36,421 bases of DNA from Planctomycetota bacterium (lineage in GTDB: Bacteria > Planctomycetota > UBA1135 > UBA2386), in NCBI GenBank assembly GCA_020425925.1, contig JAGQRB010000081.1:1-36421 (forward strand), in the 5' to 3' direction. The position numbers and the translations under genes were made by a program. Each line of letters begins with the position of its first letter. Position 1 is the stretch's first letter. This document shows, piece by piece, positions 7,645-28,194 of the stretch. The notes below the pieces were generated by a model that was not told where the DNA came from, made no database searches, and saw nothing but the letters and a program-made list of their open reading frames with translations.

Positions 7645-7718
7645 GGGCCCTTAGCTCAATTGGTCAGAGCCGGCGGCTCATACCCGCTTGGTTGCAGGTT
7701 CGAGTCCTGCAGGGCCTA
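7645..7718 (+). tRNA. tRNA-Ile (CAT anticodon), attachment-site tRNA
   Basis: Full cloverleaf seen by hand: acceptor stem 7645-7651 with 7711-7717 (first pair G-T), D stem 7654-7657/7667-7670, anticodon stem 7672-7676/7684-7688, loop 7677-7683 with CAT at 7679-7681, T stem 7694-7698/7706-7710 with loop TTCGAGT, discriminator A at 7718. CCA is not encoded. CAT could be Met or Ile2, but the stretch around the variable loop (CGCTTGGT) and the CCCTTAGCTCA start match the E. coli minor tRNA-Ile rather than its Met tRNAs, so the wobble C should be modified to lysidine by TilS. A weak -10-like TATAGC is at 7624-7629. The 3' half is overlapped antisense by the integrase gene. Confidence 0.93.
7678..7718. 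other. Left attachment site (attL), inferred
   Basis: The 3' half of the tRNA gene, from anticodon loop to discriminator base, lies next to a tyrosine integrase gene that points towards it. This is the standard layout of tRNA-targeted elements. The exact crossover cannot be set because no second copy (attR) of this segment is recognisable in the window. Confidence 0.6.
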
Positions 7719-9168
7719 CATTTTGGAGATGTGCGGTGGGCTCCGGCCAGGAGCGGCCAGCAGCGGCCAAAGGCGGCCTGGAAGGCCACGTGTGGGCGAC
7801 GTTCGGGGATTCGGTGGTCGCGCGTGTTGAGGGGTCGAACGGCCCCGAGCGGCCAGCATCGGCCCCGGTCGGCCCCGAGCGTACTGTCACTGGTACTGTC
7901 ACGGACTCGGCGCCAGCGGCCGCGCGGAGGGCGGACGCGACGGGTAGGCGTCCGAGTTCGCGGCGCAGTTCGTCGACCTCCACCTTGTCGTAGGTGCCGA
8001 GGCCGAGGTCGGTCGACTTGTGGCGCATCAGGCGCATGCGGAGCGACGGGTCGGTCGCGTTCCGGCGCAGGGTCGTGTTGAAGCCGGCGCGGATGCCGTG
8101 CACGGTCGTCGACCGGCCGCGCGCGTCGCACAGGCCGATGCCGGCCCACGCGGCGTCCAGCTTCAGCCACCGCAGCAGGGATGAGGACACTCGGAAGACC
8201 TTGTCGGCGTTCCGGACCGGGCCGCGCCCCTTCCGGACCGAGGCGGTGGAGCACTCCTTGCGGTGCCGGCGCAGCATCTCGGCGAGCATCGGGTGCAGCA
8301 CCACGATCGCGTCGTCGCGCCCCTTCTGCTTCCGGGCTTCGATCTCCGCCACCTCCTGCCCCTGGATCAGGTCCAGCTCGCCCCACGTCAGGGCGGCGAG
8401 CTCGCCGACGCGGAGCCCGGTGTAGGCGAGCGTCAGGTAGATCCGGCCCCGGAAGACGCCCTCGATCCGGAGGCTCTCGAGCTTCTCGGCGCTGGCGTTG
8501 GGGTGCGTCCGCCGCCACTCCTGCACCGGCCGGATCTCGGCGGCCTGCACAAGCAGGTCGATCTGCTCCGGCGTCAGCGCCCGGTTCACCCGGGTCCGGT
8601 CGGCCGCGGTCAGCTTCTTCGCCTGCAGCATGTCGAACGGGTTGTTCGGCCAGGTGCCACGCCGGTGCAGGTAGCGCCCGAAGGCCTTGAGCGTCACCTT
8701 GTACCCGCGCACGGTGGCGGCGCTCGCGGGCTTCCGCGGCTTGGGCTTGCCGCCCTTGTGGGTCGGCCGACCCGGCCGCACCTCGCCGAGCTGCAGCTTG
8801 GTGAAGAACAGCTCGGCCCGCGGGATGTCGAGGTCCGCGAAGGTGCGGGCACCCATCTCGTGGAACGCGAGCAGCAGCCGCTCCCGCTCGCCGACGAGGT
8901 GGCGAGGGTTCTGGCCCTTGGCGTCCGGCCGCCGGATGTAGGTCTCGACCAGCTTCGTCAGGGGTTCGCGCTTCCCGGCCTCGAACGGGTCGACGAGGCC
9001 GACCTCGCCGCGGTCCACCCGGCGCTGGTGGTCCACCATCCGCGTCCGGGTCGCGTCCTTGTCGGTGAACCCGATGAACTCGCGCCACCGGCCCTCGATC
9101 TTGACCGTGTAGCACCACCGCTTGGACTCGTTCGCCTTGCCCCTCCGGTGCTTGTAGATCGAGCCCAT
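7678..9168 (-). CDS. Tyrosine site-specific integrase of the tRNA-integrated element
   Basis: Catalyses integration and excision at the neighbouring tRNA. All catalytic residues are visible: R253 (TGLRVGELAAL), K282, H357 and R360 (VHGIRAGF), H383 (MRHKS) and the nucleophile Y393 (GTYDKV). An SAM-like core-binding domain covers about 65-180. The frame ends with GPAGLEPATKRV, which is simply the antisense of the tRNA T-arm region; its TGA is templated by the anticodon loop (7678-7680). The last about 75 residues are low in complexity and carry DNA direct repeats, so the functional protein may end near residue 420, and the free (excised) form of the element would have a different C-terminus. 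It lies seven bases after the HTH gene, last in the replication/excision operon. Confidence 0.93.
   Translation of the reverse strand: MGSIYKHRRGKANESKRWCYTVKIEGRWREFIGFTDKDATRTRMVDHQRRVDRGEVGLVDPFEAGKREPLTKLVETYIRRPDAKGQNPRHLVGERERLLLAFHEMGARTFADLDIPRAELFFTKLQLGEVRPGRPTHKGGKPKPRKPASAATVRGYKVTLKAFGRYLHRRGTWPNNPFDMLQAKKLTAADRTRVNRALTPEQIDLLVQAAEIRPVQEWRRTHPNASAEKLESLRIEGVFRGRIYLTLAYTGLRVGELAALTWGELDLIQGQEVAEIEARKQKGRDDAIVVLHPMLAEMLRRHRKECSTASVRKGRGPVRNADKVFRVSSSLLRWLKLDAAWAGIGLCDARGRSTTVHGIRAGFNTTLRRNATDPSLRMRLMRHKSTDLGLGTYDKVEVDELRRELGRLPVASALRAAAGAESVTVPVTVRSGPTGADAGRSGPFDPSTRATTESPNVAHTWPSRPPLAAAGRSWPEPTAHLQNVGPAGLEPATKRV
7751..7902. repeat. Direct repeats near attL (possible integrase arm sites)
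   Basis: GAGCGGCCAGCA occurs at 7751-7762 and again at 7847-7858, 96 bp apart; a partial copy AGCGGCCA starts at 7762. GTACTGTCAC occurs at 7881-7890 and 7893-7902. These lie within the last about 75 codons of the integrase frame, between the catalytic domain and the tRNA, where arm-type integrase or excisionase sites are normally found. The binding role is inferred. Confidence 0.45.
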
Positions 9169-9508: not shown

Positions 9509-9806
9509 GGTTGTCCCCCGTCGCGTCGCGCGAGATGCCGAGCGCGGCGAACACCGCGTCTTCGATGACCCGTCGGGCGCTGTCGTCCAGCGGCCGGTAG
9601 TACGGGTGCCGCTCGCCGCGCCGGTCTGTGCGATTCGGGAACGACAGCGTGTGCTTGCTGGCCGCAGTCCGTCGGAGGACGAGGCCGTCGAGCAGCAGCA
9701 GGTCCGCGAACGTGAGCGTGACGTAGCCGACCAGTCCTTCACGCTGGTCTTGCGCGCTACCGGGGGTGAAGCCGACGCCGCTGATCAGTCGGACGGTCTT
9801 GGTCAC
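9501..9806 (-). CDS. SpoVG-like small protein
   Basis: 101 residues. Residues about 25-95 follow the SpoVG pattern: a beta strand (GYVTLTFADLLLLDGLVL), then the TLSFPNRT stretch corresponding to FVAMPSKR of SpoVG, a polar loop, HPYYRPLDD in place of HPINS, and a final helix ending AVFAALG. SpoVG proteins bind nucleic acid and often sit in phage and plasmid replication operons. The GTG start at 9806 overlaps the stop of the primase gene by four bases (GTGA), a typical coupling. Function within the element is unknown. Confidence 0.65.
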   Translation of the reverse strand: MTKTVRLISGVGFTPGSAQDQREGLVGYVTLTFADLLLLDGLVLRRTAASKHTLSFPNRTDRRGERHPYYRPLDDSARRVIEDAVFAALGISRDATGDNHE

Positions 9807-12259
9807 TCGGCACCTCCCTTCCCCGGGGATTTCTGCGGAATGTGCGATTTCTGCGATGGGGGGTCACCCTTTCCGTGCACGCCCGGGTTCACCTCGTAGC
9901 GAGGGCTCGGCGGCCGGCCGCGGCCTGGTTTCGGCACCGGGCCGCTCGGCCGGATCCGGTGTCGCTCCTCCAGGAGATCGAGCGCCGGATCGATGTCCTC
10001 GACCCGAGCACACAGGTTCTTCAGCTGGTTGAAGGCGTCGCGCCGGGTGAAGGACATCAGGCGCCCGCGGCGCACCCAGGCGTCGATTCGCCGTGCGATC
10101 TCAACAGTGGGATCTTCGCCGGCGAGGATCGCCACCCGTTCGTAGTGCGAGACGAGGTAGTGGTGCAGCGACAGGGCGCTCTGCAGCGTCTCGACTCCGA
10201 TCTCACGCGTGGACGGGGAGTCGAACGTCCTCAGGATGCCGGCGACACGGGCGAGGCCCCCTGGCAACTTGCTACCCCACGCGCGCACAGGGGAAAGCGC
10301 GCCGTCCGGCCGAAGGTCGCGCTCGTTGTTCTCCCGGTAGCTGAGGAACAACTCCTGGGCCTGGGGTGAGAACCGAATGATCTCGGGTTCCTTGGGCAGC
10401 CAAGCGCTGAGGTTCCTCTGCATTGCCGTGCCGAAGCGGTCCGTGAGGATCGCCGGAATAGGGTCGGTCTGGAGTTCACGGAAACCGACCTTCGACTCCG
10501 GCAGGCTGAAGAAGAACCGCGCCAAGACGCCGCGGCCGTGTGCTGCTCGCGACGCGAGAAGCCCCGTGATGACATCGGGTTGAACCGACAGCGCGACCTG
10601 CAACGCGGGGCGGGCGAGGCGATCGGGCCCGCGCCCACGGCGCACGCTGTCGATGGAGTCGCCCGAGTGGCCCGCCAGCCAGACGCCGAAGTTCGGGCTG
10701 CCGGAGTAGCGACCCAGCATGATGTCGATCGCGTCGCCCTCGGCTGCCGCGAGCATCGCGCGCTCCTGGTTCAGCACGAGCGTCCGGGCGATCGCCTCCG
10801 AGGTCCCCTCCGTGACGAGGAGTGACGGCGGCCGCGGCTTCGTCGCGGCGACGGTCGCGAGTTGGCCGGCGAGTTCGTCGAGGTCCGGGTGGTCGTCCGA
10901 CTGGATCTTGGCGGCTCTCCGACGGGCTTGGTCGAGGCGGCTCTTGAGCACCTGCTCGTCGTTCTCGAAGCGACGGAGGTCGTTCGCCATCCCCGAGGCA
11001 GTCTCCGCCTGCCACGCGTAGATCGGTGCGAGCAGCTCCCGCATGACGGCGGTCTTCCGCTCGCCGCTCGGCAGGACGACGGCGACGTAAAGGCTCAACT
11101 GCTCTCGCCAGCCCCGCTGCGGTTCGACCTCGAGCCGCTTCGCCAGGCCGAGTCCCATGGTCGGCAGGATCAACATCGCCACCGCGTCGACCGGGACTTG
11201 GAAGCAGTCCGCGATCGCGACGACGTACTCGCGGAGCCAGTCGAGGTGGGACGGAAAGGCCGTGTCGATCGGGAACGCCGGCAGCGGCTGGTGGTCCACG
11301 ACGGGGCGAGGATCCGGCCACCGAAATCGACCCCCCCCATCCGCAGAAACCGCACATTCCGCAGAAATGCCCCTGGGCGCCTCCGTGTCCGATCCGTTGG
11401 CGCCGAGGTAGCCGGCCTGGCGAAGGCATTCGACCCGCGAGCAGCCTCGTGCGTGTGCGTGCAGATCGAGCACGTCGCCGTGCCACCCTCGTGCGCCGCG
11501 CACGCCCACGCCGCCGCTGTCGGCCTCGTGCCGATCGGAGAAGCAAAACCATCTCGAGGAGTCCGTCGGCAACCGCCCGAAGCAGTCGTTGTGCCTGCAG
11601 AGCGGGCACGTCCCGCCGCTCCGCGGCACCTCCAGGGGGTAGGCGGCGCGGTACGCCGCGACGGCCGCGGCCACGTCATGAAGTCCCGCGTCTCGCTCGT
11701 CGGGGAGCAGGTCGTCCAGGTCGACTTCTTCACCGACCACCTGAAGTTCCGCGTCGCGCTGGCGACCGTCGACCATGGCGTTCGGTGTCCAGAAGATCCG
11801 GGCAAAGTCGAGCGATGCGCCGCGGTCGACCCGGAAGCCGGACTGGGCAAGGTGTTCGTCGAGGGAATCGCAGAGGGCCGTCGTGGCCCGGACCCACGAC
11901 TTGCGATCGCTTGTCGCCTCACGGAGCACCCAGATGATCCGGGCACCGCGGGGTGTCAGGTGACAGACGGTCGCGCCGAGTTCGCTGGCGGCTTGAATCG
12001 GAGTCTGAGCCCGATCACCGGGAGGTGGGACGTGCTTTGCGGCGGCATCGTAGTAGTCGACGTCGACGACGATCGCGGACGCAGCACTCCAGTCGTCTGC
12101 GCGCCGGCGATCGTGCTGCCAGACGTGCGGGCTCCACCATGCGTCGCGACCGGTGTGTGGAACGAGAGCAGGCGCCCATTCGCCGTCGCCGAGCGACTTC
12201 CTCGTTGCCCGCGTCGATCCCCGGCCCTGGCCGAGCGAGAACTGCCGCTCGCTCGTCAT
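9803..12259 (-). CDS. Primase-helicase replication protein (AEP-like, zinc finger, DUF3987)
   Basis: 818 residues, probably the replication initiator of the element. Residues 1-190 resemble an archaeo-eukaryotic primase (prim-pol) domain with the acidic pair in VDVDYYD (66-71) and a later HLTPRGARIIW strand. Residues about 215-285 are a CHC2-like zinc finger (C218, C221, C226, C239, then GDVLDLHAHA). From about 330 the DUF3987 helicase-like region follows, with a degenerate P-loop LPSGERKTAV (396-405), an acidic motif near GDAIDIMLGR, and the family phrase AGHSGDSI. The C-terminus is Pro/Lys/Ser-rich. ATG at 12259 overlaps the upstream stop (ATGA). The gene contains an inverted pair of about 38-bp DNA repeats, described separately. 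Confidence 0.85.
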   Translation of the reverse strand: MTSERQFSLGQGRGSTRATRKSLGDGEWAPALVPHTGRDAWWSPHVWQHDRRRADDWSAASAIVVDVDYYDAAAKHVPPPGDRAQTPIQAASELGATVCHLTPRGARIIWVLREATSDRKSWVRATTALCDSLDEHLAQSGFRVDRGASLDFARIFWTPNAMVDGRQRDAELQVVGEEVDLDDLLPDERDAGLHDVAAAVAAYRAAYPLEVPRSGGTCPLCRHNDCFGRLPTDSSRWFCFSDRHEADSGGVGVRGARGWHGDVLDLHAHARGCSRVECLRQAGYLGANGSDTEAPRGISAECAVSADGGGRFRWPDPRPVVDHQPLPAFPIDTAFPSHLDWLREYVVAIADCFQVPVDAVAMLILPTMGLGLAKRLEVEPQRGWREQLSLYVAVVLPSGERKTAVMRELLAPIYAWQAETASGMANDLRRFENDEQVLKSRLDQARRRAAKIQSDDHPDLDELAGQLATVAATKPRPPSLLVTEGTSEAIARTLVLNQERAMLAAAEGDAIDIMLGRYSGSPNFGVWLAGHSGDSIDSVRRGRGPDRLARPALQVALSVQPDVITGLLASRAAHGRGVLARFFFSLPESKVGFRELQTDPIPAILTDRFGTAMQRNLSAWLPKEPEIIRFSPQAQELFLSYRENNERDLRPDGALSPVRAWGSKLPGGLARVAGILRTFDSPSTREIGVETLQSALSLHHYLVSHYERVAILAGEDPTVEIARRIDAWVRRGRLMSFTRRDAFNQLKNLCARVEDIDPALDLLEERHRIRPSGPVPKPGRGRPPSPRYEVNPGVHGKGDPPSQKSHIPQKSPGKGGAE
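9825..9865 (+). repeat. Inverted repeat copy A inside the primase gene (C-terminal codons)
   Basis: A unit built from ATTTCTGCGGAATGTGCG followed by TTTCTGCG and a G-run lies on the plus strand at the 3' end of the primase gene. The second copy, at 11331-11373, is in the opposite orientation. The two match over about 38 positions with one substitution and two or three single-base gaps in and beside the G-run. Each copy is itself a near-tandem of a TTTCTGCG(G) unit. Confidence 0.7.
11331..11373 (-). repeat. Inverted repeat copy B inside the primase gene (linker codons)
   Basis: Minus-strand copy of the unit at 9825-9865. It codes for the linker between the zinc finger and the helicase region (around residues 297-309, ISAECAVSADGGG), whereas copy A codes in the opposite sense for PSQKSHIPQKSPG. 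The two read different protein sequences, so the conservation is at DNA level. Confidence 0.7.
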
Positions 12260-14108: not shown

Positions 14109-14984
14109 TCAGGCGCCTAGGACGTCCCGCAGCCTCGCCCGATCGACAGCCGTGTAGATCGTTGTGCTCACGATGCTGGCGTGATTCAGCGCCGCCTGCA
14201 CCAGCCGCAGGTCCCCGGTGCGCGCGAGCAGATCGGCCGCGAACGAGTGCCGCAAGCTGTGCGTGCTCCGCCCGGCAATCCTGGACGCGGCGAACCACTG
14301 CGACAGCCGGCGCTGCGCGTGGCGCGTCGAGAGCCGACGGTCGCCAGCTACGAAGACCGGGCCGGTTGTCCGCCCCGCGAGGAACCCGCGCAGCTGCTTC
14401 ACGATGTCCGCCGGGAGGACCGCGGTCGTGGGGCGATCGCCCTTCGTCGACCGCAGAGCCAGTTCGCCGTGCGCGAGGTCGACGTCCTCGACATCGAGTG
14501 CGAGGGCGCTGCCGACCCGGATGCCGGCACCCAGGAGCAGCTCGATCAGCATGCGGTCGCGCAGCGCCTCGGGCTTTGTCGCCTTGGCGAGCGCCCGGCG
14601 CAGTCGTTCGATCTCGTCGGGGCGCAGCGCCTTCGGCGGCGGCGGTGCACAGCGCGCGCGGCGGAGCAGCCGGGCCGGGTTCGAGGCGACGAGGCCGGAC
14701 TCGTGCAGGTGCCCGCAGAAGCACCGAATCGAGGTGCGCATTGCGTTTAGCGAGACGGCCTTCTTCGGCCCGCCGCGGCAGGACATCTTGGCCGCGCCGT
14801 CGGCGAAGAACTGCGCAAGCAACTCGGGCGTCAGCGCGGCGACTACCTTCACCTGGCGGGTCGCGAGCCAGGTCACGAGCGCCGCGCCGTGGCGACGGTA
14901 CTGCCCGATGGTGTGCGGCGACCGGCCGTCGGCCTCGATCTGGAGGAGGAACGCTTGGAATGCGGCTTGGAGGTGCATGGCCAT
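14109..14984 (-). CDS. Second tyrosine recombinase, XerC/D-like
   Basis: 291 residues, the size of XerC/XerD. The N-terminal SAM-like core-binding domain covers about 1-105 (SPHTIGQYRRH at 22-32). Catalytic residues: R156 (GAGIRVGSAL), K181 (STKGDR), H242 and R245 (THSLRHSF), H268 (LNHAS) and Y277 (TTIYTAV). There is no extra helix between patches II and III as in integron IntI, so it is not a standard integron integrase. It is distinct from the tRNA integrase at 7678-9168. The start is either 14984 or two codons later. Upstream lies 388 bp of spacer with the first of the dispersed 24-nt sites 153 bp from the start. Possible roles are dimer resolution of the element or cassette recombination at those sites. 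Confidence 0.9.
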   Translation of the reverse strand: MAMHLQAAFQAFLLQIEADGRSPHTIGQYRRHGAALVTWLATRQVKVVAALTPELLAQFFADGAAKMSCRGGPKKAVSLNAMRTSIRCFCGHLHESGLVASNPARLLRRARCAPPPPKALRPDEIERLRRALAKATKPEALRDRMLIELLLGAGIRVGSALALDVEDVDLAHGELALRSTKGDRPTTAVLPADIVKQLRGFLAGRTTGPVFVAGDRRLSTRHAQRRLSQWFAASRIAGRSTHSLRHSFAADLLARTGDLRLVQAALNHASIVSTTIYTAVDRARLRDVLGA

Positions 14985-15136
14985 GACTCAGCCATGGGCG
15001 GGGCGAACACCTCAAGCCGGATTCGCAGGGAGTCGGACGGACTCGGGCCCGGCGGCTGTCCGGCGGCGGGGCGACGCCACCGCAGCAGGAACCGCGCCAA
15101 GCGCGGCGACCCGAGCAGGGGCCGGTCCGCGGGGGG

Positions 15137-15160
15137 GTCGCATGCGGGAGGGAATGCGAC
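15137..15160 (+). repeat. Dispersed 24-nt site, copy 1 (in the 14985-15372 spacer)
   Basis: GTCGCAT, ten bases, ATGCGAC: a perfect 7-bp inverted repeat with the conserved GGGA-ATGCGAC half on the plus strand. It lies in the 388-bp spacer between the divergent second recombinase and the first HNH gene. The rest of this spacer holds no gene that I can support; a GCAGAAC half-site is at 15302-15308. Confidence 0.7.
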
Positions 15161-15372
15161 GCTGTGGCCATCGACGACCGCGACGAAATCGACGATCGTG
15201 AGAAGTGTCGATCCCCAGAGCTTCTCGGGCACCACCGTCGGAGCACGCCGACGCACATGCCCTGCAGAAGCCTGCCCACGGCAACGACGGGGGGATAGAC
15301 TGCAGAACATTGGATTAGTCGGTCTTCGACACTTCACATGAGGAAGACGCTGGGCATGCAGGTATCTCGCTG

Positions 15373-16179
15373 ATGGACTTCTTTGCCTCACCAAACGCTC
15401 GCGCTGTTGGTCAATGCATCTACTGCGGGTGTAGCTCTGGTAAGCTGTCGAGAGAGCACGTCGTTCCGTATGGTCTCAATGGGCCCTGGGTCCTCTTGGG
15501 CGCGAGCTGCGCACCTTGCGCACAAATCACTGCCGAATTTGAGCGCACCGTTCTGCAAGAGCTTTGGCCGATGGCTCGACACATCTTAGGGTTGCAGACT
15601 CGACGCAAGAAAGATCTCAAGCAGCCGTGGCCGATCGTTGTAGAGCGCGGCAACCGGCAGGAGGAGGTGTTCGTTGCGCCGGATCGGTGCCCGCTGTATC
15701 TGCCAAGCCCCAGGCTGCGCTCACTGCGGGATCTCTCGACCTCGTCGGACCCCGATCCAATGCTCGAGTTCCGGCACATCGCGGGGCCCACGCTTCAGCA
15801 GATTGGGCCCGCCTATGATGCTGAGTTCGCGGGGGCAAGGCTTCGCTACAGACCGCATGACTTCCGCCGACTGCTGGCGAAAGTTGGCGTGTGCGCGGTT
15901 GTGTATGCGCTGGGGCTTGATCCACTTTCCGGCTCTTCACTTCCAGCCGCTATCGTCGACGAGACCTCGACATTCGACCACATCGTCGGTGCTTGGACTG
16001 GAGAGCCGGTCAATCCGTCGGGTGGCGGCCTCCACGAAATGCGGGTCAAGACCACCGGGTGCGACCTGCATGTCATCGTCAGGCTCTTCGCTCAATTTGG
16101 CGCCCCAGAGTACCATGTAGATCTCGGCGCGGCCAACCCAGCGTTCGTTGACTCCGAGAAATGGCCGTTCAGAGCTTGA
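15373..16179 (+). CDS. HNH-type zinc-finger protein A
   Basis: 268 residues. N-terminal zinc-binding HNH-like core: C15-x2-C18 (CIYCG), then SREHVVP with H29, and C46-x2-C49 (SCAPC). This is the layout of HNH nucleases of the HNH_5/McrA-like type, where the His after the first cysteine pair is catalytic. The remaining about 210 residues are not recognised and presumably recognise the target. It shares the layout, but little sequence, with proteins at 20767-21621 and 22770-23597. GC is visibly lower than in the host genes, consistent with recent acquisition. It converges with the gene at 16327-16869. A solitary defence or homing nuclease is plausible; nuclease activity is inferred from the motif only. 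Confidence 0.7.
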   Translation: MDFFASPNARAVGQCIYCGCSSGKLSREHVVPYGLNGPWVLLGASCAPCAQITAEFERTVLQELWPMARHILGLQTRRKKDLKQPWPIVVERGNRQEEVFVAPDRCPLYLPSPRLRSLRDLSTSSDPDPMLEFRHIAGPTLQQIGPAYDAEFAGARLRYRPHDFRRLLAKVGVCAVVYALGLDPLSGSSLPAAIVDETSTFDHIVGAWTGEPVNPSGGGLHEMRVKTTGCDLHVIVRLFAQFGAPEYHVDLGAANPAFVDSEKWPFRA

Positions 16180-16270
16180 GTCTCTGTGGTGCCCAACAAG
16201 GACCTTGGAGCCGACGGGTGCCGGAGCGGCGCTTGTCGGCTGATGGCCAAAGACCTTTGGCCTGCCCCAT

Positions 16271-16294
16271 GCGCGTTCCCTTCAGCAATTCGCC
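16271..16294 (-). repeat. Dispersed site, degenerate copy
   Basis: GCGCG then TTCCCTTCAGCA matches copy 4 (GTCGCA then TTCCCTTGAGCA) over most positions, but the right arm is lost. It lies in the spacer between the HNH-A gene and the 180-residue gene, as expected of a boundary element. The 11-mer TGCGCGTTCCC also occurs in the spacer at about 23654-23664. Confidence 0.35.
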
Positions 16295-16326
16295 GTCAGG
16301 CCTTGTCCAGGTTTTTGCCGAGTTCA

Positions 16327-16869
16327 CTATTCGCTGACAAGTTCCGTCGGCGGTCGGAGCGGAGCATTCCGAAACCCGCGGACGGCCGCCCAAAGAGCCT
16401 TCTCGAGGGTCTCGCCAACCGAGATCGCCGTCCTCCGACGCTTCTTGTGTGGACCTGTCGTTATGCCCAGTTGATCGGAGAACCGGACGCCCCACTTACC
16501 ATTGGCCATTTGCGCCGCAACGAGCCTCACGTCCCAACCGCCACAGATGTCGTCTGTCTGGTCGAGGAGGTCCCGTTGGTCGAACTGCCACCGGTAGGGC
16601 TCTTCGACGCCGGCCCTTGTCATGCGGCTGTACTCGGGCGTCGGTCGCAATACCAAGACGGGCCCGAGAGTGACCCAGGACTTGTCTCCGGCGCGCTCGA
16701 TTCCGAAGCCGATCTGGCCCCGTGTCCTCCCCCACATCTCTGGAAGCACCAGGTCGTCCGTAGTGAGGCGGGTCTCAGATGCCATATCCAGGAACGCCGT
16801 GCAACACGCGTAGTGTTGCTCTGCTCCGTTCCACTTCACGACTTCAACGATGAGTTCTTCGAAACGCAT
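16327..16869 (-). CDS. Unknown 180-residue cytoplasmic protein
   Basis: 180 residues, no signal peptide or membrane segment; family not recognised. It opens MRFEELIVEVVKW, has several aromatic-rich beta strands (PYRWQFDQRDLLDQ, GKWGVRF) and a basic patch PHKKRRR near residue 143. The C-terminus is a helix (ETLEKALWAAVRGF). It is alone between two dispersed sites and convergent with HNH-A; a cognate-partner or anti-nuclease role would be guesswork. A promoter is placed so close (-10 at 16876-16881) that the mRNA may be leaderless. GC is lower than the host average. Confidence 0.65.
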   Translation of the reverse strand: MRFEELIVEVVKWNGAEQHYACCTAFLDMASETRLTTDDLVLPEMWGRTRGQIGFGIERAGDKSWVTLGPVLVLRPTPEYSRMTRAGVEEPYRWQFDQRDLLDQTDDICGGWDVRLVAAQMANGKWGVRFSDQLGITTGPHKKRRRTAISVGETLEKALWAAVRGFRNAPLRPPTELVSE

Positions 16870-16875
16870 TGGACT

Positions 16876-16906
16876 ATTGTAAGCAGCGGGTCGCCGGAGC
16901 GGTCAA
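16876..16906 (-). promoter_or_regulatory. Promoter of the 180-residue gene, possibly leaderless
   Basis: On the minus strand TTGACC (16906-16901), a 19-base spacer, then TACAAT (16881-16876). Both hexamers are close to the sigma-70 consensus although the spacer is long. Transcription would begin at or within a base or two of the ATG at 16869, leaving no room for a ribosome site. Confidence 0.5.
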
Positions 16907-16913
16907 GCGCGAT

Positions 16914-16930
16914 GTTCTGCTGTGCAGAAC
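16914..16930. promoter_or_regulatory. 17-nt inverted repeat upstream of the 180-residue gene
   Basis: GTTCTGC (16914-16920), TGT, GCAGAAC (16924-16930): a perfect 7-bp inverted repeat directly upstream of the -35 hexamer at 16901-16906. It may be an operator. A single GCAGAAC also lies upstream of HNH-A at 15302-15308. Confidence 0.4.
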
Positions 16931-16948
16931 TCTATGCGGCGATCGGAT

Positions 16949-16972
16949 GTCGCATGCCATCGGAAATGCGAC
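16949..16972 (+). repeat. Dispersed 24-nt site, copy 2 (in the 16870-17180 spacer)
   Basis: GTCGCAT, ten bases, ATGCGAC, with CGGAA before the right arm. The 7-bp arms are perfect; an outer CGGA/TCCG pair (16944-16947 with 16976-16979) can extend the stem. It lies in a 311-bp divergent spacer that otherwise holds only the promoter elements listed separately. Confidence 0.7.
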
Positions 16973-17086
16973 CTGTCCGGGCGTCTTTCGCGCGCGTGCT
17001 GCCGCCACCGCTTGTGACGGTGGAAACGGCTTCGGGAGAGTCGACACAAGGCTCCCTCGCGTCGCGCCTTGCGTCGAGGCGCCAGC

Positions 17087-17115
17087 TCGACGTCCGGTGC
17101 CACCAGTGCTAGTCT
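17087..17115 (+). promoter_or_regulatory. Putative promoter of the DUF5681-like gene
   Basis: TCGACG (17087-17092), 17 bases, then TAGTCT (17110-17115) preceded by TGC, an extended -10. The hexamers match the consensus only partly. It would give a leader of about 60 bases ending in a strong AGGAGG ribosome site at 17167-17172. Confidence 0.35.
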
Positions 17116-17180
17116 GATCCACGAGTCGAACCGTCCAAGCGCACCTCCAAGTCGGCCACGTTCCGCAGGAGGTGATCGCC

Positions 17181-17663
17181 ATGGACAACCCAGAACCGAC
17201 GCGCGACAGCAACGGTCGCTTCGCCCCGGGCAACCCCGGCGGACCCGGACGCAGCCGGGGCCGGGGCTACGAGCTGCTCCGCGCCGCCCAGGAAGCGGTC
17301 ACCCCCGAGCACATGACTGCGATGATGCGAAGGGCGCTCCGGATGGCGCTCGAAGGCAACCTCAGCGCGATGCGCTTCGTGGCCGAGCGGACCCTCGGCC
17401 GGCCGGCGGACGCGCCCGCCGCGGGAGAGCCGCTCGACGTCTCCCTGCCGAAGCTGGTCGGCATCGACGACTGCCTCGCGGCGATCGACCGCGTGAACGA
17501 CGCGATGGTCCGCGGCGCGATCACGGTCGAGGTCGCGAAGGCGTTCCTGGACATGATCCAGGTGCGAGTGAAAGCCATCGAGGTCAAGGACCTCGAGCAG
17601 CGGCTCACGGCGCTGGAGGAGTCGGCCTCGGCCGTCGACCTCGGGGGCCGTCGCCGGTTCTGA
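17181..17663 (+). CDS. DUF5681-like small protein
   Basis: 160 residues. The N-terminal phrase RDSNGRFAPGNPGGPGRSRG (residues 7-26) is the signature of DUF5681, found next to phage packaging and methyltransferase genes. The rest is helical: a REALRMALEGNLSAMRF-like helix, and a C-terminal leucine-containing helix that may be a coiled coil (about 118-150). The ATG at 17181 has a perfect AGGAGG eight bases upstream, so it is preferred over GTG at 17172. The 3' end overlaps the convergent gene at 17605-18456 by 59 bp. Function unknown; proximity to a ParB-domain methylase is typical of prophages. Confidence 0.72.
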   Translation: MDNPEPTRDSNGRFAPGNPGGPGRSRGRGYELLRAAQEAVTPEHMTAMMRRALRMALEGNLSAMRFVAERTLGRPADAPAAGEPLDVSLPKLVGIDDCLAAIDRVNDAMVRGAITVEVAKAFLDMIQVRVKAIEVKDLEQRLTALEESASAVDLGGRRRF

Positions 17664-18456
17664 CGGCGTGCCAGAGCCCCGTCTTCGCCAGTTCGGAGAG
17701 CTCGGCCAGGCTCGGTTCCCGTTCATCTCCGATGTTCCGCGCCAGCCGGTCGAGCAATGCCATCGCCCTGCTCACATCCATCCCCTGTCGGTGCGCCTGC
17801 AGAAGATCGAGGCCGAGGTTCACGAGGACCCCCTCCAGGAGCAGCTCGTCATCCGGGAGCACACTGTCCCCGAAGAAGGCCGCAAGGGCTTCGCTCTGCG
17901 CGTCCATCCAGCTCGGGTCATCCTGCGGGATGCGACCCCGGAAGTTGTCCAGCCGAACGAACAGCCGCTTCGCCTCGGCCTCGTACGGCGGGATCGCGAG
18001 CTTCCCCGGGTAGCCGCAGACGTGCAGCGCCACGCAGCCGTAGCCGGGGACGCCATGCCGTGCGGCGAACCCCGGATTCTGGACGTCACCACCCCAGGCG
18101 ACTTCGGTTGCGATCACGGAACGGGCGAGGTTGCGAAGCGGCTGACTCTCGAACAACGCCTCGTCGAACAGCAGCCCCCGGACCGTCGGGGGCCATTCGT
18201 CGCGAGGTCGCTGCCGATCCTGGTAGGCGACGGCTGCCTGGCGCACCCGCCTGGTCAGCACAGCTCCCTCCACGGGCGGGGCTTCGGCGCCGCCGCGCAA
18301 GGCCTGCTGCACGACCTCGTAGGCAACGTGGACGTGCTCGTGGAGTTCGCCGAACATGGTGAACCACTCGTACGCTTCGCGAAGCAGATGCTTGCGAACC
18401 GGCGAGGCGTCGATCGCGTAGGCGACCCGCTCGATGCGCTTGTCGCGAGCGCGCAT
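17605..18456 (-). CDS. Unknown protein, downstream paralogue of a tandem pair
   Basis: 283 residues, no signal peptide, mostly helical; family not recognised. Its core aligns with the preceding gene product (18456-19217): RIER with RINR at the start, a central GYP with GWP, then LFVRLDNF with LDRLLEQQ, ALAAFFGDSVLPDDELLL with ALSAFLTSGILPSEPRFL, and LLDRLA with SFDAIA. The C-terminal 20 residues are Arg/Pro-rich and overlap the convergent DUF5681-like gene by 59 bp. Its ATG shares one base with the upstream stop (TGATG), so the pair is coupled. With the ParB-methylase it forms a three-gene operon, suggesting a role tied to DNA modification or packaging (inference). Confidence 0.72.
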   Translation of the reverse strand: MRARDKRIERVAYAIDASPVRKHLLREAYEWFTMFGELHEHVHVAYEVVQQALRGGAEAPPVEGAVLTRRVRQAAVAYQDRQRPRDEWPPTVRGLLFDEALFESQPLRNLARSVIATEVAWGGDVQNPGFAARHGVPGYGCVALHVCGYPGKLAIPPYEAEAKRLFVRLDNFRGRIPQDDPSWMDAQSEALAAFFGDSVLPDDELLLEGVLVNLGLDLLQAHRQGMDVSRAMALLDRLARNIGDEREPSLAELSELAKTGLWHAVRTGDGPRGRRPRPTPPAP

Positions 18457-19217
18457 CAGCGCCTCTCTTCGGTCGCCGCGACCTGCAGCTCGCCGAGTCG
18501 CCCCAACGCAGCTTCACGATCTGCTGGGCTCCCGGTCGCGATGGCGTCGAATGACGCGAGCAAGTCCTCGCTGCCCCTACCGAAGTAGTGACCGTGCAGC
18601 GCGAGCTGTTCGCTTGTCGTCAGCACGAACGGAAGGAACCGCGGCTCGGACGGTAGTATTCCGCTCGTCAAGAAGGCCGAGAGAGCCCGTCCCGCTCCCC
18701 TGTCCCACTCCGCGTCACTGCGCGGCCGGTTCGCCTGAACGATGCCTTGCTGCTCGAGCAGGCGATCCAGCTGCGCTCGGTACTGCGGGCGCACGTAATC
18801 CTGCGGCCAGCCGAGCAGGCGCATGCTGATGGTCGCGAGGTTCGTCGGCTCCATCTCCGGCCCGATCAACGCGGCATCGGTCGGGTCGTAGCCGGCCTGG
18901 ACTATCGCGCGGAGCAGGAGCCGCGCGAGGGCACGAGCCGGCCCGAGCGAGCAGCAGGCCTCGCGGAACAGCATCTCACGGGTCCCGCCGTAGGGCTGAT
19001 ACAGCGGTCGGTCTCCGGCCCGCGCGAGGTCGTCTGCATCGGGCGGAAGCGGCTTCCTCGCGTGCAACACGCGCTCCAGCACCCGCCACGCGAGAGGGTT
19101 GTCGTCTGGCAGGACGCCGCGGTCGAGGAATCGAGCGTAGGCCTCGTCGATCGCTTCGTAGCGGTAGGGGAACCGGTTGATGCGATCCTGCGCCGCCTGC
19201 AGACGTCGGGTGTTCAC
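18456..19217 (-). CDS. Unknown protein, upstream paralogue of a tandem pair
   Basis: 253 residues from the GTG at 19217; family not recognised. This start is chosen because it overlaps the methylase stop in a GTGA, and upstream codons in the frame are arginine-rich shadow of the methylase. The protein is helical, with RINRFPYRYEAIDEAYARFL at about 10-29, FREACCSLGPARALARLLLRAI in the middle and GILPSEPRFLPFVLTT late. It aligns with the next gene product over most of its length (see that entry), so the two arose by duplication. No catalytic motif is evident. Confidence 0.72.
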   Translation of the reverse strand: MNTRRLQAAQDRINRFPYRYEAIDEAYARFLDRGVLPDDNPLAWRVLERVLHARKPLPPDADDLARAGDRPLYQPYGGTREMLFREACCSLGPARALARLLLRAIVQAGYDPTDAALIGPEMEPTNLATISMRLLGWPQDYVRPQYRAQLDRLLEQQGIVQANRPRSDAEWDRGAGRALSAFLTSGILPSEPRFLPFVLTTSEQLALHGHYFGRGSEDLLASFDAIATGSPADREAALGRLGELQVAATEERR

Positions 19218-20491
19218 GGTTCGAGCCCTCGCTCGGCGGCGATCTCGGCGAACGATCGACCGTCGCCGTCCAGCGTCGCCTGCTCGCCAGTCGCCTTCTG
19301 CCAGCGGCGGATCGCGACGTCGACGAACGGCGGGGAGATCTCGATTGCGCGACACCGGCGGCCGGCGCGTTCCGCGGCGATGATCTGTGACCCACTGCCG
19401 GAGAACGGCTCGAAGACGACGTCACCGGGCGCGGTGTGCTTCTTGATCGGGCGGACGAAGAGCTCGACGGGCTTCGAAGTTGGATGTTCGGTCGACACCC
19501 GAGCCTTGCCCTCCCAGTCGACTTCCCAGACCGAGTCGTGTTCGTGCACGCCGTCGTGCTCCGGCTTGTCGCCCTGCCGCCAGCCCATCACGCAGGGCTC
19601 GTGCCGGAAGTGCCAGTAGACGCGGCCGAACACGGGCGTCGGCTTCACCCAGATGATCTGCTGGTGGTCGAGGATGCCGAGATCCCGCCAGATGCGCTGG
19701 ATGTCGCCACACCGCTTGTGCGCGTGCCAGCAGTAGATCGCGCCCTTCGGTCCAAGGATCTCGAGGACGTTTGCGAACACGGCGCGGAAGAAGCCGTCGG
19801 CGTCCTCGATGTCGATCTCGCGGTAGGTGGCGGTCCAGTCCTTGCCCGAGTCGTTCGGGCGCTCGCCCGTGTAGTCGACGAGGTACGGCGGGTCGGTCGC
19901 GACAAGCGCGGCTTGGTCGCCGGCCATGACGCGGAGCACGTCCTCCAGGTTGGTAGAGTCACCGCAGAGCAGGCGATGCTCGCCGAGGACCCAGAGGTCG
20001 CCGGGCTGGGCGATGGCGACAGCTGGCGGTTCCTCGGGACCGTCGTCGGTCAGGTCCTTGTCGACCTTCTCCTGTTCGCGCAGCTGCTGGACCAGGGCAT
20101 CGAGGTCGTCCTCGGTGTAGCCGACGCCGTCGAGGGCGTCCTCGGCCTTGAGCTGCTCCAGAAGGGCGGCCAGCTCGGCGTCGTTCCACTCTGCGAACTC
20201 GTGGGTGCGGTTGTCGGCGATGGCGAAGGCGGTGGCGGCCAAGTCATCCCCGTCGAACCACCACACTGGCACCTCGGTCATCCCGAGGCTCTGGGCGGCC
20301 TTCAGGCGCGTGTTGCCGGCGACAACCTCACCCGAGCGCCGGGCGACGATGGGCTGCTGCCAGCCGAACCGGCGCAGGGAGGCCGCAACGTGGGGGACGG
20401 CCGCGTCGTTCAGGCGCGGGTTGGCGGGGGAGCAGAACAGGCGGTCGATCGGGACGGTCTCGACCGGCGACGGAGCAGCGCGCTTCGACAA
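19214..20491 (-). CDS. ParB-domain DNA adenine/cytosine-N4 methyltransferase (beta class)
   Basis: 425 residues. Residues about 10-100 are a ParB/sulfiredoxin-like domain (VPIDRL, GNTRLKAAQSLG at 59-70, IADNRTHE). Residues about 165-410 are an amino-methyltransferase: DPPY at 200-203 precedes FSGSG at 363-367, the beta-class order of N6-adenine or N4-cytosine methylases. CWHAHKR and PTSKP motifs lie between. Such ParB-methylase fusions are common in prophages, where methylation protects the phage genome. A TTG at 20491 is chosen: it has GAGG six bases upstream and places the ParB domain right at the N-terminus; a far upstream ATG would add an arginine-rich tail. The stop overlaps the next gene (GTGA). 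No cognate restriction enzyme is adjacent. Confidence 0.88.
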   Translation of the reverse strand: MSKRAAPSPVETVPIDRLFCSPANPRLNDAAVPHVAASLRRFGWQQPIVARRSGEVVAGNTRLKAAQSLGMTEVPVWWFDGDDLAATAFAIADNRTHEFAEWNDAELAALLEQLKAEDALDGVGYTEDDLDALVQQLREQEKVDKDLTDDGPEEPPAVAIAQPGDLWVLGEHRLLCGDSTNLEDVLRVMAGDQAALVATDPPYLVDYTGERPNDSGKDWTATYREIDIEDADGFFRAVFANVLEILGPKGAIYCWHAHKRCGDIQRIWRDLGILDHQQIIWVKPTPVFGRVYWHFRHEPCVMGWRQGDKPEHDGVHEHDSVWEVDWEGKARVSTEHPTSKPVELFVRPIKKHTAPGDVVFEPFSGSGSQIIAAERAGRRCRAIEISPPFVDVAIRRWQKATGEQATLDGDGRSFAEIAAERGLEP

Positions 20492-20557
20492 GGAACACCT
20501 CGGGCGGGATCGGGAGCCGCTTGGAGGTGGCCTTGGACGGGGGCTCGGTCGGGCGCG

Positions 20558-20566
20558 AGTGTAGCA
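20558..20566 (-). promoter_or_regulatory. Extended -10 promoter of the methylase operon
   Basis: On the minus strand TGC followed by TACACT (20563-20558), an extended -10. No good -35 is seen at 16-18 bases; instead dispersed site copy 3 (20589-20612) lies where a -35 and activator would bind. The leader to the TTG at 20491 would be about 60 bases. Confidence 0.4.
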
Positions 20567-20588
20567 CGCAGGGCGCGACCGCCGGAGG

Positions 20589-20612
20589 GTCGCATTTCCC
20601 CACGCATGCGGC
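20589..20612 (-). repeat. Dispersed 24-nt site, copy 3 (in the 20492-20766 spacer)
   Basis: On the minus strand GCCGCAT, ten bases ending GGGAA, ATGCGAC. One arm base differs from the consensus. It lies in the divergent spacer between the methylase operon and the second HNH gene, 14 bases from the CTACGGT hairpin. Confidence 0.68.
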
Positions 20613-20625
20613 CTGCAAATACCGG

Positions 20626-20644
20626 CTACGGTCTCCAACCGTAG
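20626..20644. other. CTACGGT hairpin next to site copy 3
   Basis: CTACGGT (20626-20632), CTCCA loop, ACCGTAG (20638-20644): perfect 7-bp stem. CTACGGTC followed by CCAACC nearby is also found beside site copy 6 (from 28219), so it may belong to the same repeated unit. Confidence 0.45.
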
Positions 20645-20766
20645 GGCCAGCTATCGCGGACCGCCTGGTTGAACGGTTGTTTGCTTCGACGCGCGTCACG
20701 TCACGAGGGGCACGCCATTCGACCGCTTGCGGCTGGGCATCCGGACCACTACGGTTGCTCTGGGCG

Positions 20767-21621
20767 ATGGTTACAAGCTGTATCTTCTGCGGTGACCTGG
20801 AACTCACTCCGGAGCACGTCTTTTCCAAGTGGATATCGAAGGCGCATCCGAAGGAGACTTTCACGGGAGAGGGGCACCATGCCTACGGGATTGTCTTGAG
20901 CAATCCAGAAGCAGACGATTTGGACAACTTGTGGGAAAAGCGAAGAGAGCTGTACAACTCTGGCGATTGCAGGGTGTCTCGACTGGCTGCGCGCGCAGCG
21001 AGCGCAGTCGTCGTATGCAGGAAATGTAACAACGGGTGGATGAGTCTCTGCGAACAGAAGCTAAGAACCTTCATGAAGCCGTACATCGAAGTGGATAAGC
21101 CGTCGAATCCGATGTACCTACGGCTGGCGTCCTCGCAGTGGGATACTTGCGCGCATTGGGTCGCCATGAAAGCAGCGGTCATTGCTGCAGATGCGGGTTA
21201 TTTGTTACCCGCCGGTGACCTCTTCAATATCAAGGATGGCAGGATCCCACCAGACGCCAGGATTGAATACATGCCAAGTTCAGTAGCTGCGGATGCCTAT
21301 GGCGTTGTCGTGCATGGGATTAGATCGAAGGAAACTGGTGACTTGAGGTGCGCGGTTGTAGCCATTCGATTCACCGGTCAGATGTTCCGTTACGCATGGG
21401 CGGGAATTCCAGGCAAGCGATTGAAGTCAGGCGGTGCCTTCCTCACTTGGAGTGTGCAACCTCGCACCAAGGTTCCGATAATGCAGTGGGCTGAGGATTT
21501 GGTGAAGAGAGGTTTCCGACGCTTCGAGAGTTACATGAAGGAACTCGATGAGTTCGCTTCGGACGTTGACTTGGAGGATGTCCCTCCGGGTGAAGGAACC
21601 AACGTCGATGGAGTCGGGTAG
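20767..21621 (+). CDS. HNH-type zinc-finger protein B
   Basis: 284 residues from the ATG at 20767. HNH-like core at the very N-terminus: C5-x2-C8 (CIFCG), LTPEHVFSKW with H17, and C84-x2-C87 followed by NN (CRKCNNGW). The two zinc pairs are about 75 residues apart, separated by an acidic/basic insertion. The C-terminal 190 residues are not recognised (AHWVAMKAAVIAADAGYLL, TGQMFRYAWAGIPG). Codon use and base composition are clearly more AT-rich than in the host genes, pointing to transfer. The gene stands alone between site copy 3 and a degenerate site. Starts further upstream would put arginine-rich residues before the zinc finger. A defence or mobile nuclease is inferred. Confidence 0.72.
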   Translation: MVTSCIFCGDLELTPEHVFSKWISKAHPKETFTGEGHHAYGIVLSNPEADDLDNLWEKRRELYNSGDCRVSRLAARAASAVVVCRKCNNGWMSLCEQKLRTFMKPYIEVDKPSNPMYLRLASSQWDTCAHWVAMKAAVIAADAGYLLPAGDLFNIKDGRIPPDARIEYMPSSVAADAYGVVVHGIRSKETGDLRCAVVAIRFTGQMFRYAWAGIPGKRLKSGGAFLTWSVQPRTKVPIMQWAEDLVKRGFRRFESYMKELDEFASDVDLEDVPPGEGTNVDGVG

Positions 21622-21648
21622 TCGACGCCAGGTTCCGGACCGGCGCCT

Positions 21649-21676
21649 GTCCGATGCTTGCTTGAGGGAATCGGCC
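21649..21676 (+). repeat. Dispersed site, degenerate copy with 14-nt centre
   Basis: GTCCGAT (21649-21655), 14 bases ending GAGGGA, then ATCGGCC. The left arm equals that of copy 6 read on the minus strand, and the GGGAAT junction is kept, but arm pairing is imperfect. It separates the HNH-B and PIN genes; the rest of the 21622-21839 spacer shows nothing else. Confidence 0.4.
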
Positions 21677-21839
21677 GGACTTGCTGTGAGATCCCGGCGT
21701 CTCGGGTGTAGGCGGAGAGTGCAGTGCGCCTCGGACCCGACCGACGCTCGTCCTGCCCCCTGTTTTCGCTATGCTCAGCGGCGTCGACGTGCAGACTTCC
21801 TCGCCGGAGAATGCAAACCGCTGGCGACCACCTTCGACG

Positions 21840-22691
21840 ATGCTCTACCTGGACACCTCGGCCATTCGCCACTTGGCAGATGAAGAGCGGTACGCTGCTC
21901 TTCGCGGAGAGCTTGTCCGGCGCGCTGCGTTCGGACCCGTGTTTTGCACCAGCATCCTCGCACTCGAGGAGATTTTCACGTCGACCAGAGAGAACCCGCA
22001 GGCTCGCGACGCGGCTTTCCGGCTGCTGCGGCAACTGGTCCCCGAAGGTGTGCTGTGGCATTGGCACCCTGTTGTGCGACAGTGGGTTTCTGCGCCCACC
22101 GAGTTCAGGCCATCGCCCTGCTGGGAAACCCGTCCATGGAGTGCTCTGGGAGCCAGCATCAGAGAGCAAGACGTAATACGGATGCGGGAAGAGCAGGAGA
22201 AGCTACAGGATGGCGCGCAGCGGTTTCGCGACGCCGTGGCCCGGGATCTCACACAGTCGGGGCACTTGGACTGCTCCGCAGAGAAGGCTTCCTTCTGGGC
22301 GAATCCGGCCAGCGTCGTGCAGAAGGCCGGCGAGCTGAGTGACTACCTGTTCGGCGTCCGGGGCAACTTGGCGGCCCTCATGCACAGCCTAGGCAGGGTC
22401 TCCGACGCCGATGCCTGCTGGAAGGCCAGGGGGAACCTCTGGGTCCGAATGTGCGCGCGGCACCTCGTGATCGGCGTCGTTCGCCGGGTTTGCGGACGGA
22501 CAAGTGACAACAACCTGCGGGGCGAGCTCTATGACAACATCCACATTGCGTTCAGTTCGGTGGCCGATGGAATCGTCACGCAGGACCGCTGGCTGCGTCG
22601 CTCGGTGAGCATGTGGGAGGGTGCGCAACAGCGCCATGTAGCGTTGTCGCTGGACGATTTGCCTGCGGCACTTGATACCAAGACCGGATAG
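21840..22691 (+). CDS. PIN-like domain protein
   Basis: 283 residues, much longer than VapC toxins (about 130). It starts MLYLDTSAI with D5, the first PIN acidic residue; E43/E44 in LALEEIF fit the second; D232 (YDNIHIAF) and D249 (GIVTQDRW) fit the last two, with the typical phrase IxxAxxxxDGIVTxD. A long helical insertion (about 60-220) separates the halves. This is a Mg-dependent RNase fold; solitary large PIN proteins occur in defence and toxin loci. No antitoxin gene is adjacent. The ATG at 21840 puts the first strand at the N-terminus; an alternative ATG at 21771 would add 23 polar residues. It is bounded by a degenerate site and by site copy 4, 22 bp after its stop. Confidence 0.72.
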   Translation: MLYLDTSAIRHLADEERYAALRGELVRRAAFGPVFCTSILALEEIFTSTRENPQARDAAFRLLRQLVPEGVLWHWHPVVRQWVSAPTEFRPSPCWETRPWSALGASIREQDVIRMREEQEKLQDGAQRFRDAVARDLTQSGHLDCSAEKASFWANPASVVQKAGELSDYLFGVRGNLAALMHSLGRVSDADACWKARGNLWVRMCARHLVIGVVRRVCGRTSDNNLRGELYDNIHIAFSSVADGIVTQDRWLRRSVSMWEGAQQRHVALSLDDLPAALDTKTG

Positions 22692-22712
22692 CCACAGGTG
22701 CATCCGAACCGA

Positions 22713-22736
22713 GTCGCATTCCCTTGAGCATGTGGA
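22713..22736 (-). repeat. Dispersed 24-nt site, copy 4 (between convergent genes)
   Basis: On the plus strand GTCGCAT then TCCCTTGAGC then ATGTGGA; the conserved half AGGGA-ATGCGAC is on the minus strand and the other arm is weak. It lies between the stops of two convergent genes (22691 and 22770), so it cannot serve as a promoter operator. Confidence 0.6.
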
Positions 22737-22769
22737 GCATCAAGACGCCGAATGGGAGGCGGACCCGGT

Positions 22770-23597
22770 TCATGGCTCATCCATGTCGGCGGTGATGCAC
22801 ACGTCATCATTGAGCATGAGCGCATCGCTCACGTTGGGGCTTTCTGGCCAACTCGGGCGAAGGCTATCTGACATTCTCGTCGGCACAGAGTGCTTCACTA
22901 CTTGACCGACTTGGTGTCCACGGGCTTCGAGTTCGAAGCGCGCAAACTTCTGCGGGACAGGCTGAGGGGGGTCATAGGTGACCATGAATGCCAGGGGAAG
23001 GTACTTTAGGAAATCGCCCACCAGCATCCTCAGTGGAGAGACGACGCCAAGATCGAAGAGGACGCCCACTCCGCGCAGTACTACCTGACGTTTTCCCCAG
23101 TAAGGCCAGACGAAGACGCGCAGGTTGGGTGGCAGGTCGAGTGTGGAGTCCAAGACGTAGTCTCGCATCGATTGCTGCATTGGGGCGGAAGACGGATGCA
23201 GAGCCATGTCGGCCCGCAGTTCCGCAGCCAGAAGGTGGCCCATCACGGCCCTGGCTACGTTCGCCGGCTGGATGTCGACATCAATGTGGCCGGGAAGTGT
23301 TAGGCGACGACCAACTCGCATGATCTGTCCAACCTTGCGGCTGAATTGGTGCAGAGCCGGGTCGTAGGATAGTCCAAGTAGGTCGTTGTTGCACGAGGCG
23401 CACAGAGTGCGGAACTTCAGACCATTCTGGGATAGGCGACGGATCCGCTTGTCTGGCGGCTTGAGCTTGGGAATCAGCTTCTGGACCCAGACACGACTCG
23501 TGTGCGTGGGGTCCCAGCTGCCGCGGGGCGGAACGTGGTCTTCAGTCAGCCTAGCCCGGGTTGAGCAGATGTTGCAGCGACCGTAGTTCGTGCTCAT
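22770..23597 (-). CDS. HNH-type zinc-finger protein C
   Basis: 275 residues. HNH-like core: C8-x2-C11 (CNICS), LTEDHVPPRG with H21, then C66-x2-C69 and NN (CASCNNDL), the same second-pair context as HNH-B. The remainder is unrecognised, with VARAVMGHLLAAELRADMAL in the middle and a LRVFVWPYWGKR strand. The ATG at 23597 lies four bases downstream of a long inverted repeat (23601-23654), so its mRNA leader or promoter would include that structure. It is a single-gene unit between site copies 4 and 5. GC is moderately low. Nuclease activity is inferred from the motif. Confidence 0.72.
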   Translation of the reverse strand: MSTNYGRCNICSTRARLTEDHVPPRGSWDPTHTSRVWVQKLIPKLKPPDKRIRRLSQNGLKFRTLCASCNNDLLGLSYDPALHQFSRKVGQIMRVGRRLTLPGHIDVDIQPANVARAVMGHLLAAELRADMALHPSSAPMQQSMRDYVLDSTLDLPPNLRVFVWPYWGKRQVVLRGVGVLFDLGVVSPLRMLVGDFLKYLPLAFMVTYDPPQPVPQKFARFELEARGHQVGQVVKHSVPTRMSDSLRPSWPESPNVSDALMLNDDVCITADMDEP

Positions 23598-23600
23598 GTG

Positions 23601-23654
23601 AGGCGAGGCCTTCGCGTCGCATACTACGGGAAATGCGACGCCGAGGCCTCGCCT
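23601..23654 (+). repeat. Dispersed site copy 5 inside a 54-nt inverted repeat
   Basis: The 24-nt site itself is 23616-23639: GTCGCAT, ACTACGGGAA, ATGCGAC. Around it AGGCGAGGCCT (23601-23611) is perfectly complementary to AGGCCTCGCCT (23644-23654), separated from the inner arms by four unpaired bases on each side. The spacer 23598-23801 also holds a weak minus-strand reading with MGAAIYLKGWAH that I cannot support as a gene. Confidence 0.7.
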
Positions 23655-23801
23655 GCGCGTTCCCGATGACCCACTTCACCCCGTTGCTGACGACGGTGTG
23701 GCCTGGGTTCGCGCCCGGCGCGTGCGCCCATCCCTTAAGGTAGATTGCGGCGCCCATCAAGCCGTTCCAGCTTGGGGTCCAGTTCGTGCTGAGCCTGAGA
23801 G

Positions 23802-24659: not shown

Positions 24660-24700
24660 GTCAGTCAATCCCCTGGTCCTTGGCCGCTCCTGAGCCTGGA

Positions 24701-28180: not shown

Positions 28181-28194
28181 CTCACTGGAGATGC

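Follow-up and report, generated by a model that had tools for sequence, protein, structure and literature searches.

We analyzed a 36,421-nt stretch of DNA (the window) from contig JAGQRB010000081.1 of assembly GCA_020425925.1, an uncultured Planctomycetota bacterium. The window contains a gene for an Xer-like tyrosine recombinase and six copies of a 24-nt site. The original prediction had described these as an integron-like layout. We found, in addition, that both sit inside a mobile island that starts near a tRNA-Met gene at 7645. The features, from left to right, are:

7645-7719, + strand: tRNA-Met, the likely attachment site of the island (Rfam, ARAGORN)
7678-9168, - strand: island integrase (Pfam), conserved in 16 loci; its open frame overlaps the 3' end of the tRNA
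9803-12259, - strand: DUF3987 helicase/primase, a backbone gene (Pfam, 2.2e-85; phrog DNA helicase, 2.4e-51)
14109-14984, - strand: Xer-like tyrosine recombinase, the proposed cassette recombinase (291 aa; Pfam Phage_integrase, 1.8e-28)
15137-15160, + strand: site 1, recombinase-proximal, in an attI-like position (0 mismatches)
15373-16869: interval A, an HNH-like gene (15373-16179, +) and an unknown gene (16327-16869, -), called as open reading frames with no Pfam match
16949-16972, + strand: site 2 (0 mismatches)
17172-20638: interval B, a DUF5681 gene (17172-17663, +), two unknown genes and a ParB/N4-N6 DNA methyltransferase gene
19214-20638, - strand: open reading frame of the ParB/N4-N6 DNA methyltransferase (phrog_498, 6.8e-120)
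20589-20612, - strand: site 3 (1 mismatch)
20767-22691, + strand: interval C, an HNH-like gene (20767-21621) and an unknown gene (21771-22691), no Pfam match
22713-22736, - strand: site 4, left arm weak and right arm intact (2-3 mismatches)
22770-23597, - strand: interval D, an HNH-like gene (called by eye), no Pfam match
23616-23639, + strand: site 5 (0 mismatches), the sole window copy with a long flanking stem (fold z-score -3.7)
23802-28102: interval E, HEPN-like (weak), HSDR_N-like, UzuA, GIY-YIG and HTH-like genes (Pfam)
25724-26635, + strand: UzuA of the Uzume anti-phage defence system, within interval E (PADLOC, 2.1e-70)
28195-28218, - strand: site 6, left arm weak (2 mismatches)
28429-34680, + strand: interval F, open at the contig end, a 2083-aa YD/RHS-repeat-like gene

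The island and its recombinase

From tRNA-Met, the backbone runs in the order integrase, small gene, DUF3987 helicase/primase, unknown gene and then recombinase. The tRNA was the only Rfam match in the window, and a search of the window for a second copy of the tRNA-Met end (attR) found none; the contig stops short of the island's right end and of the end of its last interval. The DUF3987 gene region also has a 39-nt inverted repeat (87%; 9825-9863 and 11334-11372).

The same backbone is common to related islands, mostly from Planctomycetota assemblies, and many distant relatives have terminase subunits and a ParB-methyltransferase upstream of the recombinase. The satellite-type genes in the window are those for the integrase, DUF3987 helicase, DUF5681 and methyltransferase; the large and small terminase subunits were found only in relatives. 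Based on this shared backbone and the terminase and ParB-methyltransferase genes of the relatives, the islands look like phage satellites, a label that is not proven. They share with P4/PICI-like satellites a tRNA integrase, a DUF3987 helicase/primase, terminases (in relatives) and defence cargo. They differ in having a second, Xer-like recombinase with an array of sites.

The recombinase has a SAM-like N-terminal domain (Pfam) in addition to its catalytic domain. R156, K181, H242, R245, H268 and Y277 are invariant across 22 homologues, in agreement with the claim that all six catalytic residues (R-K-H-R-H-Y) are present. The best NCBIfam model was XerC (142.7 bits, under the equivalog cut-off). 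The integron-integrase model TIGR02249 (NCBIfam) gave only 72.5 bits against a cut-off of 265, split over two stretches. The AlphaFold model (mean pLDDT 91) had XerA and XerH as its nearest solved folds by E-value, and structural alignment to IntI4 needed ~36 extra gap columns, whereas alignment to XerA needed none. The insertion specific to IntI is thus missing, as had been predicted. By sequence and predicted fold the protein is a member of the Xer-type family and not an IntI; it falls under both the XerC and XerD equivalog cut-offs and is therefore a divergent member. The gene starts at 14984 and reads leftwards with site 1 upstream, also as predicted, the distance to the start being 152 bp.

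The site and the intervals between its copies

The consensus of the site is GTCRCAT-KC-NNNN-GG-RA-ATGCGAC. Its six copies in the window, two of them weak, span 15137-28218. A search of the window with up to 3 mismatches gave 9 matches at these 6 places; 0.12 were expected by chance. Every copy in the whole assembly (7.76 Mb, 987 contigs) was on this one contig, and the reversed pattern, used as a control over the same 7.76 Mb, had no match. These genome-wide counts, like those given below, are based on pattern searches.

The sequence logo has 24 conserved nucleotides and random flanks, and bears out the claim that the GTTRRRY/RYYYAAC order of attC is absent. Complementarity of the flanks, which an attC-like stem beyond the 24 nt would require, was no better than in shuffled sequence (p=0.12). 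We rejected attC-like folding of the flanks; only the site at 23616 had a long stem. The arms and spacing, CGCAT-2-[6]-2-ATG, fit the geometry of dif. Judged from its sequence, the site is dif-like (in arm spacing only) and not attC. The dif layout is 11-6-11 (PMC12907356). From the likeness of the two arms we infer that a single enzyme could act on both. The centres differ among neighbouring sites and recur between unrelated places: 32 pairs of sites with unrelated flanks had identical centres, compared to 17.4 +/- 4.1 expected, although relatedness was not fully removed from this count. In the GC-rich DNA of distant relatives, searching de novo for other palindromic sites was uninformative.

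Two kinds of repeated sequence were seen outside the site. At the contig end (36078-36421) there is a 128-nt repeat (92%) with copies 216 bp apart, and its ~50-nt core is found again next to a site in L088 (2239-) and at other places in other genomes. A conserved stretch of ~160-200 nt directly adjoins sites in G026 and G008 (L088:2239-2401, L176:914-1077, L083:5203-5305 and L188:10230-10427), as if it were a regulatory or end element travelling with the site.

The original prediction had an array of site-bounded genes extending rightwards. The intervals are present, but the sites are of mixed orientation (+,+,-,-,+,-), and the number of genes per interval ranges from one to several, with both directions represented. 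The HNH-like gene in interval A was called by eye (CxxC...EHV...CxxC). The HNH-like genes of the window, in three separate intervals (15373-16179, 20767-21621 and 22770-23597), are different from one another, and another HNH-like gene (1241-2158) fills the variable zone of L108. Interval B is a module common to other islands. Its methyltransferase probably starts nearer 20490, because the open frame overlaps site 3. The methyltransferase region (19516-20576) has 85% DNA identity to a locus in another genus (L178), which suggests, from sequence, that the module was recently transferred. At site 3, DNA homology with the methyltransferase regions of other genomes ends 12-13 nt away.

Other cargo recurs in other genomes. 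A UzuA homologue (cluster c31) is present at L098:12234-13040, where it belongs to the first module of another genome's island. Very long YD/RHS-like genes lie directly after a site in three genomes (the window, L081:7894-14388 and L087:1629-), and the gene in L081 has a site on its far end too. The DNA of the RHS-gene homologues that adjoin sites was too diverged to show junctions. The module containing DUF5681 and the methyltransferase lies directly after the proximal site in L103. In L101, L098 and the window, one extra site-bounded module is between the proximal site and this module. That order is compatible with insertion at the proximal site, although which arrangement came first is not established.

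Sites and junctions in related genomes

If the recombinase and the site are linked, the original prediction held, then the site should recur near close homologues and not elsewhere. The first part was nearly always so. Among 11 recombinases at least 50% identical, two (L102 and L107) were excluded, their contigs ending within 75 bp upstream. In 8 of 9 testable recombinases at least 52% identical, a site (0-4 mismatches) was present upstream, 55-264 bp from the start. For the ninth (L119), the contig extends just 244 bp upstream, and the best match there has 5 mismatches. L119 is a 59% identical recombinase on a 4.6-kb contig in a MAG labelled Aggregatilineales (Chloroflexota), possibly misbinned. 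Approximately 3% of random 400-bp segments from the same loci reached 4 mismatches, some of them true sites.

Sites with at most 1 mismatch were found in 16 of 249 related genomes, and the reversed pattern in none. A refined pattern, allowing 2 mismatches, had 66 hits in 15 genomes of the family compared to 3 for the reversed control (near-palindromes can count on both strands in this total). Six of the 8 genomes with a homologue at least 50% identical had the site, compared to 10 of 241 others (Fisher test, p=7e-7). The 10 include three genomes of genus g29 (G044, G084 and G117) whose single sites are apparently one conserved locus and are not taken as support. Sites were also near three more distant homologues (L108, L076 and L080), with a variant site in L072 and L073, and on the tree the recombinases with sites group together (6 changes, compared to a mean of 11.7 after shuffling).

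The second part of the expectation held only with qualifications. Three genomes with sites (G001, G008 and G019) lack this recombinase and have only generic Xer-like proteins; fragmentation, decay or use of the sites by host XerCD could account for these. One such locus, L081 (G019:C32:138000-157999), has four sites in 12 kb with no recombinase nearby and is CALIN-like. Many distant homologues (42-48% identity) had no site and had packaging or methyltransferase genes directly upstream; sites were mostly absent wherever such genes directly precede the recombinase. Viral contigs contained no close recombinase with sites, and one solo site. Since sites occur in genomes without the recombinase and distant homologues are site-less, the link, so far as sequence can tell, holds for some clades and not for the whole recombinase family.

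We looked for junctions by aligning paralogous loci of the same genome with each other. Of the 204 alignment ends from all such pairs, 12 fell on sites, compared to 0.46 expected. Because each junction was counted twice or more, the 12 stand for five independent ones, spread over four genomes and more than one clade of recombinase. In G016, two islands match at 85% identity on the array side as far as the final base of the proximal site, immediately past which they are unrelated. At the second site of these two islands, the 24 nt are identical and the DNA is unrelated on both sides; the same module is at a third place in that genome, beginning at the site. In G043, three contigs share methyltransferase-side DNA (92-97% identical); across the site, it adjoins the recombinase in one of them and something else in the other two. 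In G011, a ~220-bp stretch is repeated from a site onward, and two islands of G150 keep 82% identity on the recombinase side as far as the site's end. In a sixth pair (L108 and L113, G141), the backbones are 94% identical and the variable zones share only the 24-nt site, which is 100% identical.

Sequence thus changes within or just beyond the site, as would be expected for strand exchange there, which remains an inference. All of the genomes are draft metagenome assemblies, in which short repeats can misjoin contigs, although the sites at several junctions differ in sequence. The genome of the window has only one such island and therefore offers no junction test for the window itself. Comparison of genomes shows that recombinase and site are linked, what the exact extent of the site is, that junctions fall at sites, and that islands alike in other respects differ in their modules.

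A proposed system of cassette exchange

Based on these results we infer, with a probability of roughly 0.7, that the recombinase and its sites are a dedicated Xer-type cassette-exchange system on a satellite-like island. The original prediction had proposed a functional link and cassette capture unlike that of known integrons. The upstream sites, the junctions and the failed integron tests support this; capture by the enzyme is still inferred. The recombinase would bind the two inverted arms of the dif-like site and exchange strands in its variable centre. Next to the recombinase gene, on its upstream side, is one site; the rest would mark the edges of gene modules. Whole modules would then be added, removed or swapped when sites of co-resident islands recombine with each other or with a circularised module, chiefly in the stretch from the recombinase to the DUF5681/methyltransferase module, or past that module.

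That this protein is the catalyst is inferred, as are the positions of cleavage, circular intermediates and a preference for matching centres. Insertion and excision of cassettes by the recombinase rest on comparative junctions only; no enzyme activity has been shown. The mixed orientation and different centres within an array should hinder excision by a Cre- or Xer-like enzyme. Exchange between co-resident islands seems at least as likely as cassette-by-cassette excision, because centres differ between neighbours and recur elsewhere, as in the xrs cassettes of Acinetobacter. Exchange of those cassettes between replicons needs closely related centres (PMC11705084).

The pdif modules depend on host Xer enzymes. 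It is possible that the sites are pdif/xrs-like and used by the chromosomal XerC and XerD of the host, and that the island recombinase is a relative with another task, adjacent by descent only. The genomes with sites and only generic Xer-like proteins fit this, as do the arm geometry, which matches dif, and two features known from Acinetobacter xrs cassettes, mixed orientation and divergent centres (PMC11705084). The islands also share with these plasmid modules recurring centre types, exchange between replicons and, as the pdif criterion requires, genes bounded by sites that are dif-like (in arm spacing only). But sites are strongly tied to this recombinase and to a position a short way upstream of it; Xer-like proteins occur generally, whereas most genomes have no site; and the site logo fails the criterion of XerC/XerD arms with ATAA-centre-TTAT, motifs that XerCD sites need (PMC11705084). 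The islands are also chromosomal, not plasmids, and encode a recombinase beside the first site, whose similar arms could make one enzyme sufficient. A canonical dif for comparison was not found in this genome, and eight related genomes gave one weak match. We consider use by host XerCD unlikely.

We give little credence to a second possibility, that the recombinase mainly resolves multimers of the island, with the proximal site as its resolution site and module swapping as an accidental by-product. XerA, XerH/difH and Cre/lox likewise use one tyrosine recombinase on a short inverted-repeat site, and XerA and XerH are the closest solved folds. These systems resolve replicon dimers at one site, whereas here several sites in series bound different accessory modules, and solo sites lie away from any recombinase. 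The recombinase is in the backbone even of islands without sites or modules, which counts for multimer resolution and, as regards the missing sites, against it.

That the palindrome is instead a parS- or operator-like binding site for the ParB-domain methyltransferase or another regulator is very improbable: many site-bearing islands do have a ParB/methyltransferase gene, but many others have that gene without any site, and a regulator's binding site would not account for homology stopping there and giving way to unrelated DNA.

The best-known case of a dedicated enzyme that collects gene cassettes is the integron. The islands share the geometry of integrons (a recombinase reading away from a proximal site, an array of bounded accessory genes opposite) and, as in CALINs, there are arrays or solo sites without a recombinase. 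The criterion of an attI-like site beside the integrase with the array on the far side was met, in 8 of 9 testable close homologues. Still, a true integron with an unusual integrase can hardly be reconciled with the integrase score, the absence of an attC-like stem and boxes, and the mixed orientation. Here the enzyme is Xer-like and has no IntI insertion, the site is 24 nt long where integrons have a folded attC, the proximal site does not differ in type from those of the array, orientation is mixed, and modules are multi-gene, with genes in both directions, on satellite-like islands.

The best reading is that the dedicated Xer-type system works like an integron or a pdif module and belongs to neither. 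Searches of the literature, limited to open-access papers, found no description of such a system or of an island site array. Whether it is a third gene-cassette platform, of an origin independent of integrons, is evenly balanced in our judgment. In such a platform, a single dedicated Xer-type recombinase and dif-like sites would let satellite-like islands of Planctomycetota trade modules, including defence genes. If so, cassette exchange would have arisen more than once, here with an Xer-type enzyme of the system's own and a simple site of 24 nt. It would also explain how islands swap cargo such as defence genes, and the site sequence would be a direct handle for finding further cargo.
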